Both the position numbers and the translations under genes were made by a program. Below, in pieces: positions 36,374 to 41,286 of a DNA stretch of 41,395 nt (the first letter of the stretch is position 1; each line of letters opens with the position of its first letter). The notes under the pieces were generated by a model, which ran no database searches, was not told the origin of the DNA, and saw only the letters and a program-made list of their open reading frames with translations. Source of the stretch: Rhodospirillaceae bacterium (GTDB taxonomy: Bacteria > Pseudomonadota > Alphaproteobacteria > Rhodospirillales > JABHCV01); the NCBI GenBank assembly GCA_014382375.1, contig JACNJU010000041.1, forward strand, positions 1 through 41,395, in the 5' to 3' direction.

Positions 36374-39300
36374 TTAACCCGCGTCATGCAAGTCCGACAT
36401 GCAATGCATGATCCATTTACGGGTCAGTTTCTCTTGCACGGCGTTTTGAAGCAACCGTTGTTTGAGGGCCGGGAAGACAACATGGTCCAAATTCTGGTCC
36501 TGATTGAAGCATGAGAAAATGATCGTTTCCTCGCCGGTTTCTGGGTCCCTGTGCAATTGCAGGCACTGGGCGCAGATTTCCTTCATCATGCATTGCATGG
36601 GCGAGTTTATGGAGCCGATGGCTGTATGGGCCGGGTCGAGGTGTTCCTTTAAAATACCGTGTCTGGCATCGGCGACGGCCTTCATCATAACGTCCGAACC
36701 AATGACCAGCATCCGCTCGGCGTCTTTCATGGAAATCGGGTTTTCGCCCAGGCCGCCATTGGCATACGCGGTCATCGCCTCGACCACATTTCCGACAAAG
36801 GCTTTGTCGCCTGGACGACCGGGTTCAAAGCCGGGTGCTTCATCGCAGCACCAGACGATGGTGTCGGCGGCGGCTTCGATGTTGTCAATGTGGTAACGGT
36901 CACCTGTGCCTTTGTAAGCGGCGAAATAGAGAACCTTTGATCCTGCCTCGCGAAGCGCCTGACCGATAGAAAACAGTACGGCGTTGCCAAGCCCGCCACC
37001 GACCAGGACGACGGTTTCGTCACCGGGGGTTTCTGTTGGTGCTCCCGTCGGCCCCATCAGGACGACGTGCTCGCCCGGTTGCAACAGTTCACACAGGCTG
37101 GATGAGCCGCCCATTTCAAGGACGATGGTTGCGACAAGTCCTTTTTCAACGTCGACCCAGGCCCCGGTCAGTGCTTGACCTTCCATGCCCAGAACTGTGC
37201 CGTCACAGCGTTTGGCGTTGGCCTCGAAGTTTTGCAGGCGGAAAAACTGCCCCGGCTTGAAAGCCCTGGCGGCCAGCGGTGCATGCAGGATGACCTCGAC
37301 GATGTTGGGGGTCAGGCGAATGACGTCGACAACCCGGGATCGAAGTCCGTGATCAAGTTGCTCCACCAGATTTATGGCACTGACGGCATTTGGTGGGTTC
37401 TTAACCAGTTGCCGGTTGATCACCGGATAGCCCCGTCTGGCGCTGGCCATTGCCTTGACCACATTGCCAGCAAAGGATGGATGGAGATCGCCAAAGAAGG
37501 TTATGGAATGACCATTTTCTGTGACCTTCATGGTCACCTGCGCTTCTTCGGGCTTGGCCGACCATTCAGGCGAAACAATATTGCCGTTTTCGTCTTCGGC
37601 CTGGAAGAATTTGCCGTCAAGTTCGGCGAAACCGGGATATTCACGGGCGATTACCGTATTGGGCTGGGTTCCTGCGGCGATCAGGATTGAACGCGCCGGT
37701 AAAGAAATAACATGGCCGGTCGCATTGGGGCGGTTGTGTTCATCCAGTTCCTGTACTTCAAGCTTGATCGCCTGGGCGTGGCCGTGGTCGTCGACATCAA
37801 TGGCGACGGGGGAGAGCATCTCGGCGAAGTTGATGCCCTGCTCAAAGGCTTTGGTGATTTCTTCGTGGTTCAGGGTGTAACTGGGCGCATCAATCAGGCG
37901 ACGGCGGTAGGCGATTGTCGCCCCGCCCCAGCTGTCGAGCAACGGTGCAAAGTTGGGTAGGCGATCTTCGTTTTCGGCTGCTTGCCGCTCAGCACGAATA
38001 GCCCGACCGTGTTCAAGAAATTCTTCGGCAAAGCCTTGTTCTTCCTTGCTCCAGCCAGCATCGACGCCGCCGTTAGCGGCCAGTTTCTCATGCCGGGCAA
38101 GAAATTTCTCAACCTGTTTAACGTAATAAGCCAGCGCCTCGGTTGCGGTGTCGATGGCGGTCAGCCCGCCACCAATGACGACCACTGGCAGGCGGATGTT
38201 GAGATTGGCCACGGAGTCGGATTTTGCCGCCCCGGTTAACTGCAACGCCATCAGGAAATCCGATGCCTGCCGAACGCCGCGAGCCAGCGCGTTGGGAATG
38301 CCAAGGACGGTCGGTTTGCCGGCACCGATACAAAGAGCGATATGATCAAAACCCATCTCGAAAGCGTTTTCAGCGGTAATGGCACCACCGAAGCGGACCC
38401 CGCCATACAGGGTGTAACGGGCACGCCGCTCGAGCATGATACGGATGGCTTTAAGAAAATTCTTGTTCCAGCGCACGGTAATACCATATTCGGCGACGCC
38501 GCCAAAACCGGCCATGGTCCGCTCGTCCAGCGGTTCTTCAATGTCGGTAAAGCTGTGGACTGGTTCGAATGGAGTCCGCTCACCACTTTGGCTGATGCCG
38601 CTTAAGGAGGGCTCCAGTGGCTCGATCTTGGCCCCGTCTATGGCAACGACGGTGTGGCCTTCATTCATCAGGTAATGGGCCAGGGTGAATCCGGCCGGTC
38701 CCTGGCCGACGACCAATACCTTGTAACCGCTGTCACTTGCCGGATGCGGACGCTTGAAATTCAAGGGGTTCCAGCGGGTCAGCAGGGAATAGATTTCAAA
38801 TCCCCAGGGCAGTTCCAGAACGTCTTTAAGTGTCCGGGTTTCGGCTTCGGGAATGTTGACCGGCTCCTGCTTCTGGTAGATGCAGGCTTTCATGCAGTCG
38901 TTGCAGATACGGTGGCCGGTGGCTGCTGTCATCGGGTTGTCGATGGTGATGATAGCCAGCGCCGCTATGGCATAGCCGTCAGCCTTGGCCTTGTGCATTT
39001 CAGAGATTTTTTCTTCCAGTGGGCAACCGGCCTGGGGAATCCCCAACTCGTTACTGGCGAAAGCGCCGCTTTGTTTATCGCGAATGCCACGCGAGCAAGA
39101 ATCTTTGCCCCGATCATGGCAAATGACGCAGTAATTGGCCTGATCGAGTGCACCGATAAGGTCACAGCCCTGATCGGTCAGGGCGAAGCCGTCGCGGGGA
39201 TGTTGGGATTCGGGCGGCAGGCGCATAATATCGGTGCCGTGGTCGTGAAAGGTTTCGGTCTCGACCAAATTCATAAAATCAACTTTTTCTGGCCCCTTGA

Positions 39301-39856
39301 ACAAAACATCGGCGCGATGGCGCTGCTGCCCGGCTTGCGTATGGAAGGCCCAGGCGGCGTAGCGTCTGGCAACATCAATGGCGTCGCTGTTGGCGTCTTC
39401 ATCATCGAGCCAGTTCATCACGGTTTTGGCGAACGTCAGCTGATCAAAAGCGCCACCCATTTGCGCCGTTAGTTGTTGTTCCAACGCCGGGCCCTCAATG
39501 GTCTCGGCCTCCTCTGCTTTTATTTTTTTAGCCGCCTGGCGTTGTACGAATAACCTTTTACAGGCGAACAAGGGGGCCAGATCATGGTGGCGCTCGGACA
39601 GTTCGCGGACCTGTCGCTCAATTCCAAACAAATGCCCGATGAAATCATCAACATGCGGGCCTATCGCTAAAATAAGATCGGACGACGCTTTCTCGTCAAG
39701 ACCGCCAGGATCTTTACGGGCATCGAGAAGGCGCTGGTAAAGATCGCCATCGGCTTCTTGCATGTGTTCAAGGAAAACCTTGTCGAGGCGGATCAATCCG
39801 TCATTGTCGTAAAGATCTTTGAATGATAATTGGTGGGCGAGAGCAAGGTCTGTCAT
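36374..39856 (-). CDS. Fused GltD/NfnB-like and PyrK/NfnA-like flavoprotein
   Basis: This 1160-residue single chain has three parts. Residues 1-230 are helical and match no family I recognise. Residues 240-860 are GltD/NfnB-like. They begin with Cys clusters (C243, C246, C254, C278, C318, C321, C325) that can hold Fe-S centres, then an FAD site VLVVGQGPAGFTLA (380-393) and a second dinucleotide fold VVVIGGGLTAIDTA near 560. Residues 870-1160 are PyrK/NfnA-like ferredoxin reductase with GQFFRLQNF (flavin) and VVLVGGGLGNAVL (NAD(P), near 945). A four-Cys cluster (C1089, C1095, C1098, C1116) fits a [2Fe-2S] site. The layout equals NADH-dependent ferredoxin:NADP+ oxidoreductase (Nfn) fused into one protein. 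The real electron partners are unknown. It leads a run with pmbA and the lipid A genes and is divergent from a rhodanese gene. Confidence 0.85.
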   Translation of the reverse strand: MTDLALAHQLSFKDLYDNDGLIRLDKVFLEHMQEADGDLYQRLLDARKDPGGLDEKASSDLILAIGPHVDDFIGHLFGIERQVRELSERHHDLAPLFACKRLFVQRQAAKKIKAEEAETIEGPALEQQLTAQMGGAFDQLTFAKTVMNWLDDEDANSDAIDVARRYAAWAFHTQAGQQRHRADVLFKGPEKVDFMNLVETETFHDHGTDIMRLPPESQHPRDGFALTDQGCDLIGALDQANYCVICHDRGKDSCSRGIRDKQSGAFASNELGIPQAGCPLEEKISEMHKAKADGYAIAALAIITIDNPMTAATGHRICNDCMKACIYQKQEPVNIPEAETRTLKDVLELPWGFEIYSLLTRWNPLNFKRPHPASDSGYKVLVVGQGPAGFTLAHYLMNEGHTVVAIDGAKIEPLEPSLSGISQSGERTPFEPVHSFTDIEEPLDERTMAGFGGVAEYGITVRWNKNFLKAIRIMLERRARYTLYGGVRFGGAITAENAFEMGFDHIALCIGAGKPTVLGIPNALARGVRQASDFLMALQLTGAAKSDSVANLNIRLPVVVIGGGLTAIDTATEALAYYVKQVEKFLARHEKLAANGGVDAGWSKEEQGFAEEFLEHGRAIRAERQAAENEDRLPNFAPLLDSWGGATIAYRRRLIDAPSYTLNHEEITKAFEQGINFAEMLSPVAIDVDDHGHAQAIKLEVQELDEHNRPNATGHVISLPARSILIAAGTQPNTVIAREYPGFAELDGKFFQAEDENGNIVSPEWSAKPEEAQVTMKVTENGHSITFFGDLHPSFAGNVVKAMASARRGYPVINRQLVKNPPNAVSAINLVEQLDHGLRSRVVDVIRLTPNIVEVILHAPLAARAFKPGQFFRLQNFEANAKRCDGTVLGMEGQALTGAWVDVEKGLVATIVLEMGGSSSLCELLQPGEHVVLMGPTGAPTETPGDETVVLVGGGLGNAVLFSIGQALREAGSKVLYFAAYKGTGDRYHIDNIEAAADTIVWCCDEAPGFEPGRPGDKAFVGNVVEAMTAYANGGLGENPISMKDAERMLVIGSDVMMKAVADARHGILKEHLDPAHTAIGSINSPMQCMMKEICAQCLQLHRDPETGEETIIFSCFNQDQNLDHVVFPALKQRLLQNAVQEKLTRKWIMHCMSDLHDAG

Positions 39857-39878
39857 GTTATTCTTTCCGTCGTCAAAT

Positions 39879-39904
39879 TAAATACGCATAGCTATGCGTA
39901 TTTA
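39879..39904. promoter_or_regulatory. Perfect 26-bp palindrome, probable operator
   Basis: The half-site TAAATACGCATAG is followed immediately by its exact reverse complement, giving 13 perfect base pairs of dyad symmetry centred at 39891/39892 with no spacer. It lies 22 nt upstream of the flavoprotein start and 78 nt upstream of the rhodanese start, between divergent genes. A possible minus-strand promoter (TTGCCA at 39941-39936 and TATGAC 17 nt further) would place the flavoprotein start site at its edge. No T-run follows, so it is not a terminator. A dimeric repressor or activator site is the likely reading, but no regulator gene is adjacent. Confidence 0.75.
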
Positions 39905-39941
39905 TTACAGTGGTCATATCCATTTGTGCGGCGATTGGCAA

Positions 39942-39959
39942 GAGAAACAAGGGTTTCTC
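39942..39959 (+). promoter_or_regulatory. Short perfect hairpin in rhodanese leader
   Basis: GAGAAAC (39942-39948) pairs perfectly with GTTTCTC (39953-39959) across AAGG. It sits 23 nt before the rhodanese GTG start. It may be an RNA hairpin in the leader or a second protein-binding dyad. No T-run follows directly, so termination is unlikely. It has no other visible function. Confidence 0.4.
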
Positions 39960-39982
39960 CCATTGTTTGAGGGGTTTTTACG

Positions 39983-40408
39983 GTGTACGAAGCAACATAT
40001 GCGGGCGATATAGGACCAAAACAGGCCTGGCAGGTGATGGCTGATAATGCCGGGGCGGCACTACTGGATGTGCGCACACCGGCGGAATGGGCTTACGTCG
40101 GCTTGCCGGATTTAAGTGCGCTGGCGCGCCAACCCCTGCTGGTTCCGTGGCTGATGTTCCCGTCCATGCAGGTTAATGCGGATTTCCTCACCCAGGTATC
40201 GGAGACCGGCGTTGACCCGACCCAGGACCTGGTCATTCTCTGTCGCTCTGGCCAGCGCTCGAAAGCCGCCGCCATTGCATTGACGGCGGCTGGTTTTTCC
40301 ACCTGTTACAACATCGCTTACGGTTTTGAAGGCGACAAAGATCACAGCGGCCACCGTGGCACAATCAACGGCTGGAAAGTCGATTTATTGCCCTGGGCGC
40401 AGGGATGA
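39983..40408 (+). CDS. Rhodanese-like sulfurtransferase
   Basis: The 141-residue single rhodanese domain has ALLDVRTPAEW near the start. The active-site loop CRSGQRS, with C87 as persulfide carrier, follows, then an FEGDKDHSGHRGTINGWK tail. The six-residue loop is of the sulfurtransferase and not the Cdc25 phosphatase type. The GTG start at 39983 has GAGGGG about nine bases upstream. It overlaps ppc (ATGATGA) and is divergent from the Nfn-like gene across the 26-bp palindrome. Likely cytoplasmic, since there is no signal peptide. The sulfur donor and acceptor are unknown. Confidence 0.9.
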   Translation: MYEATYAGDIGPKQAWQVMADNAGAALLDVRTPAEWAYVGLPDLSALARQPLLVPWLMFPSMQVNADFLTQVSETGVDPTQDLVILCRSGQRSKAAAIALTAAGFSTCYNIAYGFEGDKDHSGHRGTINGWKVDLLPWAQG

Positions 40409-41286
40409 TGACGGAAGATTCCCACAGCCCTGATAAAGACGCGCCCCTGCGCGACGATATCCACCTGTTGGGTCGTCTGCTGGGAAATACGGTGCGCGAA
40501 CAAAACGGTGAGGACGCCTTCGAGATCGTTGAAATGATTCGGCAGATTTCGGTGCGCTACCACCGGGATGACGATGAGCCAGCGAAAAAAGAATTGGAAG
40601 AAATCTTAAAACGGCTTGATCCGAAGGAAGCCGTTGACGTGATAAGGGCCTTTAGCCTGTTCTCTCATTTGGCCAACATCGCCGAAGACCTGCACCATGT
40701 GCGCAGAACCCGCAGTCATGACCGTGCCGGAGACCCGCCCCGGCGGGGTTCTATGGCTAACGTTCTGACGCGGGCCGCAGAAGCCGGGATCAACACGGCG
40801 GAACTGTACGCCTTTTTCGCCGATGCCCACGTCCAACCCGTCCTGACGGCGCACCCGACAGAAGTTCGCCGCAAAAGCACCATGGGCCACGAGTTGGCCA
40901 TCACAGGCCTGTTGGCGCGGCGCGAACAATCGGATTTAACCCCGGTTGAAAGCGATGAAATCGAGGTGCAAATCCGGCGTGCGGTGCTCGCACTCTGGCA
41001 AACCGGCATGTTGCGCAACAGCCGGCTGAACGTTCTCGACGAAGTCTCCAACGGTTTGACTTATTACGATTACACGTTCCTTGATCAGTTGCCTAAAATT
41101 TATCGGGCGATTGAGGACCAGCTTGCTGAAAAATCAACTGACCACCTGGCCAAACCGATTGCCTCATTTTTGCAGATTGGTAGCTGGATCGGCGGTGGTC
41201 GGGGCGGGAAACCTTTTTTTTCCGCCGGTGGTTTTGGCAAGACCTTGCAACGCCCGGGGGCCAAGGGTTTTAGTTTCTATTTTTAG
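40405..41286 (+). CDS. ppc: Phosphoenolpyruvate carboxylase, N-terminal part (disrupted at window end)
   Basis: The first ~255 residues are a normal PEP carboxylase N-terminus: LLGRLLGNTVREQNG, then VQPVLTAHPTEVRRKS containing the catalytic His. RAVLALWQTGMLRNSRLNVLDEVSNGL follows, then FLQIGSWIGG. The enzyme adds bicarbonate to PEP to form oxaloacetate. From about 41190 the expected GGDRDGNPFV motif reads GGGRGGKPFF, and a TAG appears at 41284-41286. The same frame then continues ELHLLGAGMSMSA to the end at 41395, again resembling PEPC (which has FYLEELHLLGA there). The changes are substitutions with no frame loss, and the gene is also cut by the window edge. Confidence 0.88.
   Translation: MMTEDSHSPDKDAPLRDDIHLLGRLLGNTVREQNGEDAFEIVEMIRQISVRYHRDDDEPAKKELEEILKRLDPKEAVDVIRAFSLFSHLANIAEDLHHVRRTRSHDRAGDPPRRGSMANVLTRAAEAGINTAELYAFFADAHVQPVLTAHPTEVRRKSTMGHELAITGLLARREQSDLTPVESDEIEVQIRRAVLALWQTGMLRNSRLNVLDEVSNGLTYYDYTFLDQLPKIYRAIEDQLAEKSTDHLAKPIASFLQIGSWIGGGRGGKPFFSAGGFGKTLQRPGAKGFSFYF

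Follow-up and report, generated by a model that had tools for sequence, protein, structure and literature searches.

The window, by which we mean the whole stretch of 41,395 nucleotides that was analysed, carries a rhodanese gene and, on the opposite strand, a gene for a large Nfn-type flavoprotein (Table 1); the Pfam match of the former and the similarity of the latter to NfnI bear out the divergent pair named in a preliminary description made from the sequence alone. Against the equivalog profile NF005128 (PRK06567) the flavoprotein scores 810.7 bits, below the curated cut-off of 1072 bits, and both subunits of NfnI from Pyrococcus furiosus find weak matches within its single chain (5jca_L at residues 452-576, E 5.2e-17; 5jca_S at residues 845-1005, E 1.7e-10). 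Seven N-terminal cysteines (243, 246, 254, 278, 318, 321 and 325) and four C-terminal ones (1089, 1095, 1098 and 1116) are shared by all 28 sequences of the alignment, among them that of the window; these sets would be compatible with two [4Fe-4S] clusters and one [2Fe-2S] cluster. Among 70 flavoprotein loci, the fetched upstream stretches of 33 hold a rhodanese match on the opposite strand, and the divergent arrangement is an old one. The neighbouring phosphoenolpyruvate carboxylase gene (40405-41286) stops after 293 residues near the contig end and spans just the first 261 of 919 profile positions; this early stop may be a sequence error at the contig end.

Table 1. Features of the flavoprotein-rhodanese locus, in positions of the window.
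Feature	Position	Strand	Basis
Nfn-type flavoprotein, 1160 aa: N-terminal part, NfnL-like middle, NfnS-like C-terminal part	36374..39856	-	NF005128; 5jca L and S chains; alignment
Divergent control region	39857..39982		Alignment with congener G001
Palindrome, putative operator of a BadM-like Rrf2 regulator	39879..39904		Shuffles; identity in G001; related sites at bcr promoters
Predicted -10 element TATGAC	39913..39918	-	Consensus; family alignment
Predicted -35 element TTGCCA	39936..39941	-	Family alignment
Single-domain rhodanese, CRSGQRS loop, divergent neighbour	39983..40408	+	Pfam PF00581

Within the 126-bp intergenic region that separates the two genes lies a perfect palindrome of 26 bp, composed of the 13-bp arms TAAATACGCATAG and CTATGCGTATTTA with a spacer of 0 and 0 mismatches. 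The second-longest zero-spacer arm across the whole window measures 7 bp. An arm of 13 bp was reached by none of 200 dinucleotide shuffles of the window (maximum 12) and by none of 20,000 shuffles of the 126-bp region (maximum 11), and both tests thereby confirm the earlier claim of a perfect dyad without spacer that exceeds chance. Another inverted repeat, GAGAAACAAGGGTTTCTC at 39942-39959, lies between the flavoprotein -35 element and the rhodanese start and is unchanged in the congener G001.

The family alignment points to a flavoprotein promoter of the type TTGC...TATAAG, of which the window's version reads TTGCCA-N17-TATGAC; TATAAG occupies the aligned -10 place in the relatives G003, G005 and G004. 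As a strict sigma-70 promoter scan found no promoter, we infer this one from its conservation. With the transcript start assumed 7 nt past the -10 element, the palindrome would come to lie at about +3 to +28, which is where a repressor would block the flavoprotein promoter; a regulatory dyad in such a place, as proposed in the preliminary description, is supported, and it has sister sites elsewhere. A different dyad, AGTCAGAC-N3-GTCTGACT, is found about 85-110 bp upstream of the flavoprotein gene in the genus g23, where it overlaps the -10 element and the start of the flavoprotein gene: It is clear in L060 and L013 and weaker in L015, L012 and L065, its further copies are at about control level, and the bcrB search gave no match in these five genomes.

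The conservation of the palindrome was followed in six genomes of the family, namely the window's own (G000) and G001 to G005, of which G001 and G002 are congeners and G003 is an assembly 67% complete. The expectation that relatives would share the dyad was borne out in part: Among the five relatives it is perfect in G001 and degenerate in G003 (19 of 26 letters at the corresponding flavoprotein place), and it is absent from G002, G004 and G005. Between G000 and G001, 0 of the 26 palindrome bases are changed, 4 of the 22 bases downstream of it are, and the intergenic region as a whole shows six substitutions and one gap in 125 aligned bases; the fourfold sites of the flavoprotein gene diverge by 29%. 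The three relatives without the dyad also gave no match to bcrB, a marker of anaerobic benzoyl-CoA reductase, which was found in G000, G001 and G003, so that the distributions of dyad and bcrB coincide across the six genomes. This co-occurrence (3 of 3 vs 0 of 3, p about 0.05) amounts to few independent events, because the dyad-bearing species share ancestry. In the 2.1-Mb genome of G002, which has neither bcrB match nor dyad, the divergent rhodanese (locus L006) looks decayed, its match (31.7%) being of part length and interrupted by stops.

The exact 18-bp core of the palindrome is present as a single copy in G000. With 3 mismatches allowed, G000 holds one other place (control 1), and a spaced version of the core finds four (control 4); with up to 2 mismatches, the core occurs in 2 of 60 genomes, which are G000 and its congener G001, and 5 of 385 genomes of a class sample, G000 included, carry it against 14 with a reversed control in a count by eye. 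On these counts, a wide regulon of exact or near-exact core copies was rejected. The genome_contigs collection (84,980 species by its description) yielded one exact core match, in an uncultured Ruegeria, where it forms part of a 30-bp perfect palindrome (L034:3914-3943, NZ_CANNGO010000013.1). This palindrome lies between the gene of what we take, from the sequence, to be a SulP-like permease and a divergent gene for a sulfotransferase-like protein, and its core is absent, at up to 2 mismatches, from the other 53 of the 54 genomes of the genus. A core match in a viral contig lies inside a gene and was taken as chance. Neither an Rfam search nor a search of literature text for the operator string gave a match.

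A pattern derived from the site arms in G000 and G003, AWTRCGYA-N6-TRCGYAWT with at most 1 mismatch, gave two sites each in G000 and G001, all of them mismatch-free (controls 0). In G003 it met just the flavoprotein site itself (control 1), in G002 and G004 one one-mismatch site each, located elsewhere (controls 1 and 0), and in G005 none. The genome scan suggested beforehand left the exact core single and, through the arm pattern, led to a sister site at had and an SDR gene. This second G000 site (G000:C127:11796-11821) shares 20 of 26 letters with the palindrome and is letter-identical in G001; it lies 64 bp upstream of had, between the operon had-oah-dch-bcrC-bcrB-bcrA-bcrD, all seven genes of which exceed their NCBIfam equivalog cut-offs, and the divergent SDR gene, which is followed by a gene whose product resembles 4-hydroxybenzoyl-CoA reductase gamma (250.1 bits, slightly short of the cut-off of 257.8).

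The same contig carries a GNAT gene followed by the gene of an Rrf2 regulator (TIGR00738, 106.4 bits; cut-off 73.3), with a related dyad upstream of the pair. In G526 and G527, which belong to another family, the dyad is located between bcrC and a divergent GNAT-Rrf2 pair similar to BadL-BadM in Rhodopseudomonas palustris; among the bcr loci examined, such a pair stands beside bcr in G000, G001, G526 and G527 only. In G565, had and a korA homologue (33% identity) flank the dyad, and in G003 a further site has SDR on one side and a korA homologue (33%) on the other. On C127 itself (L116:3496-9092), korA-like, korB-like, pyridine-nucleotide reductase and GltD-like genes are present, and the korAB-like and GltD-like ones could constitute an alternative ferredoxin supply. 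None of the sister sites found is shared with sulfur-metabolism genes: They occupy bcr, SDR/4-hydroxybenzoyl-CoA-reductase-like and GNAT-Rrf2 promoters, and a palindrome-type dyad is present at only 3 of the 33 rhodanese-bearing flavoprotein loci. The sulfur-responsive regulon, and with it the rhodanese-linked sulfur control, that had been read into the shared intergenic region are thus unsupported.

We examined the relation between the flavoprotein and bcr sites with matrices. A seed matrix was built from the two flavoprotein sites only (G000/G001 and G003) and applied to bcr promoters: 20 stretches were fetched from the 52 bcrB genomes, 11 of these reached the operon start, and G000 was added as the twelfth locus; of the nine left out, seven end before the operon start and two show not one of had, oah, dch and bcrC. 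The best match fell within 250 bp upstream of the bcr operon at 11 of the 12 loci, and at 9 of 10 outside the window's genus, while 300 column-permuted dyadic matrices attained this at a mean of 1.6 and a maximum of 7 of the 12 loci, none of them equalling the seed matrix. One of the 11 matches, in G731, is probably a different sequence and was omitted from a nine-site matrix made of bcr promoters from other families; with the seed matrix, the promoter site of G017 ranks second.

With the nine-site matrix, the palindrome is the top of the window, but its score of 10.6 is ordinary: The best scores in 50 shuffles of the window have a median of 10.1. The reason is that the palindrome has CGCA in its arms, where other families mostly have SGTA; the proposed link between palindrome and bcr leans on the genus's own had sites. 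On the 61-kb bcr contig C127, the GNAT-Rrf2 promoter comes first and the had promoter second. Among the 70 flavoprotein upstream regions (one of which, L074, has less than 300 bp upstream), G003 ranks first with 16.9, G001 second and G000 third. At 15 of the 18 bcrB-positive loci of this set there is no such site before the flavoprotein gene (scores no higher than 0.6). The median best score is lower in the bcrB-positive loci (-5.2) than in the rest (-3.15). Since these other bcrB-positive loci score low, recruitment of the flavoprotein, if real, is confined to the window's clade.

Across the order, bcrB is found in 52 of 317 genomes and the flavoprotein in 119, counts that come from draft genomes, in which absence is not certain. 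The flavoprotein is commoner in genomes with bcrB (37 of 52) than in the others (82 of 265; Fisher p 9e-8, kinship ignored). As 82 of the 119 flavoprotein genomes are without a bcrB match, the flavoprotein cannot generally serve to supply benzoyl-CoA reductase with ferredoxin; its role is wider.

From the site, its sister sites, its conservation and its co-occurrence with bcrB, which can be read directly in the genomes, we infer, with a probability of roughly 70%, that the palindrome serves a BadM-like Rrf2 repressor as operator, by which the Nfn-like flavoprotein joins the benzoyl-CoA regulon. The binding protein would be the dimeric Rrf2 repressor encoded beside the BadL-like GNAT gene on the bcr contig. 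Bound just downstream of the flavoprotein promoter, it would block transcription, and an aromatic-derived signal would bring about its release. Control by the same regulator would extend to had-oah-dch-bcrCBAD, to the SDR/4-hydroxybenzoyl-CoA-reductase-like genes divergent from it and to the operon of the regulator itself. With the palindrome under Rrf2 control, the flavoprotein would be made during anaerobic benzoyl-CoA degradation and probably contributes there to the supply of benzoyl-CoA reductase with low-potential electrons in the form of reduced ferredoxin, as proposed for AadN.

The dyad next to the assumed transcript start could also be accounted for by a hairpin at the 5' end of the mRNA (about +3 to +28) that protects or tunes the flavoprotein transcript without a DNA-binding protein. 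The leader does form a stem of 11 bp capped by an AGCU loop (z -3.1), z falls to -4.5 in G000 and -5.4 in G001 in sliding windows, and in G003 the homologous stem gives the lowest-energy fold and contains one two-sided compensatory pair. We nevertheless regard this explanation as improbable: The symmetry continues through the loop, the dyad recurs at the bcr and GNAT-Rrf2 promoters, and the G003 leader attains a z of just -0.45 in a test of 29 loci. Leaders in general are unstructured, with a median z of 0.13 over these 29 loci and a genus-averaged z of about -0.3 at the start over 20 loci picked, out of 33 scored, for a convincing promoter; a general structured 5' leader thus finds no support in either set.

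Little probability also attaches to the idea that the palindrome is an operator of this very regulon bound not by Rrf2 but by another regulator of aromatic pathways, for example a BadR-like one. Rrf2 is itself a putative binder, R. palustris uses AadR as well according to passages of PMC6191541, and BadR is named in the title of a cited reference; it is Rrf2, however, that stands beside bcr in four genomes and has a related dyad upstream of its operon. Very improbable, in our view, is a by-product of template switching, in which an imperfect dyad became perfect without acquiring a function of its own. Perfect stems are reported to arise and become fixed through template switching (passages of PMC8794818), and G003 has an imperfect homologous dyad, but all 26 bases were kept despite the fourfold divergence and the changes immediately downstream, and matching sites occur at other promoters. 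Such an event may nonetheless account for the perfection of the symmetry.

The sites found here yield a candidate operator consensus of about TAAWTNSGYA-N6-TRCSNAWTTA for Rrf2 control of anaerobic benzoate degradation across one bacterial order. The proposed regulon links an uncharacterised family of Nfn-type flavoproteins to benzoyl-CoA reductase, and it opens to direct test, in these bacteria, which enzyme provides the low-potential electrons that reduce the aromatic ring. More tentatively, and with the odds somewhat against it, a widespread flavoprotein with fused large-then-small Nfn parts might have been drafted in one genus, by gain of a BadM-type operator, as ferredoxin reductase for the ATP-dependent benzoyl-CoA reductase; it would then represent a second, independent Nfn solution beside AadN and would act jointly with KorAB and possibly with the rhodanese as partner.

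The closest known counterpart of the regulatory arrangement is found in R. palustris, where, according to passages of PMC6191541, the Rrf2 regulator BadM represses the benzoyl-CoA reductase operon and the N-acetyltransferase BadL makes acetamidobenzoates that release BadM. As in that control of badDEFGAB, Rrf2 and GNAT genes here accompany benzoyl-CoA reductase genes, and dyad sites precede both the reductase operon, at its promoter, and GNAT-Rrf2. The literature searched, including the passages of PMC6191541, gave no BadM operator sequence, and the likeness is drawn from gene content and the placement of the sites. The operon here is of the had-oah-dch-bcrCBAD type, unlike badDEFGAB, and the set is extended by a flavoprotein gene that lies on another contig.

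For the flavoprotein, the nearest parallel is AadN, a fused Nfn homologue of R. palustris that, as passages of PMC9973337 describe, is required for growth on benzoate and 4-hydroxybenzoate, dispensable on cyclohexane carboxylate and proposed as electron donor route to benzoyl-CoA reductase; R. palustris strains have AadN or KorAB, never both. Judged from this description, both proteins combine in a single chain an NfnL-like and an NfnS-like part, have conserved sets of cysteines and are linked to the anaerobic degradation of aromatics. They differ in that the window's protein of 1160 aa has a long N-terminal part and the order large-like then small-like, that its link is a shared operator instead of gene neighbourhood, and that it also occurs in genomes without bcrB. 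With NfnI of P. furiosus (PDB 5jca, 5jfc), finally, the window's flavoprotein shares sequence similarity across both subunits; this similarity is weak, and the window's protein, known here from its sequence, is fused and far longer.
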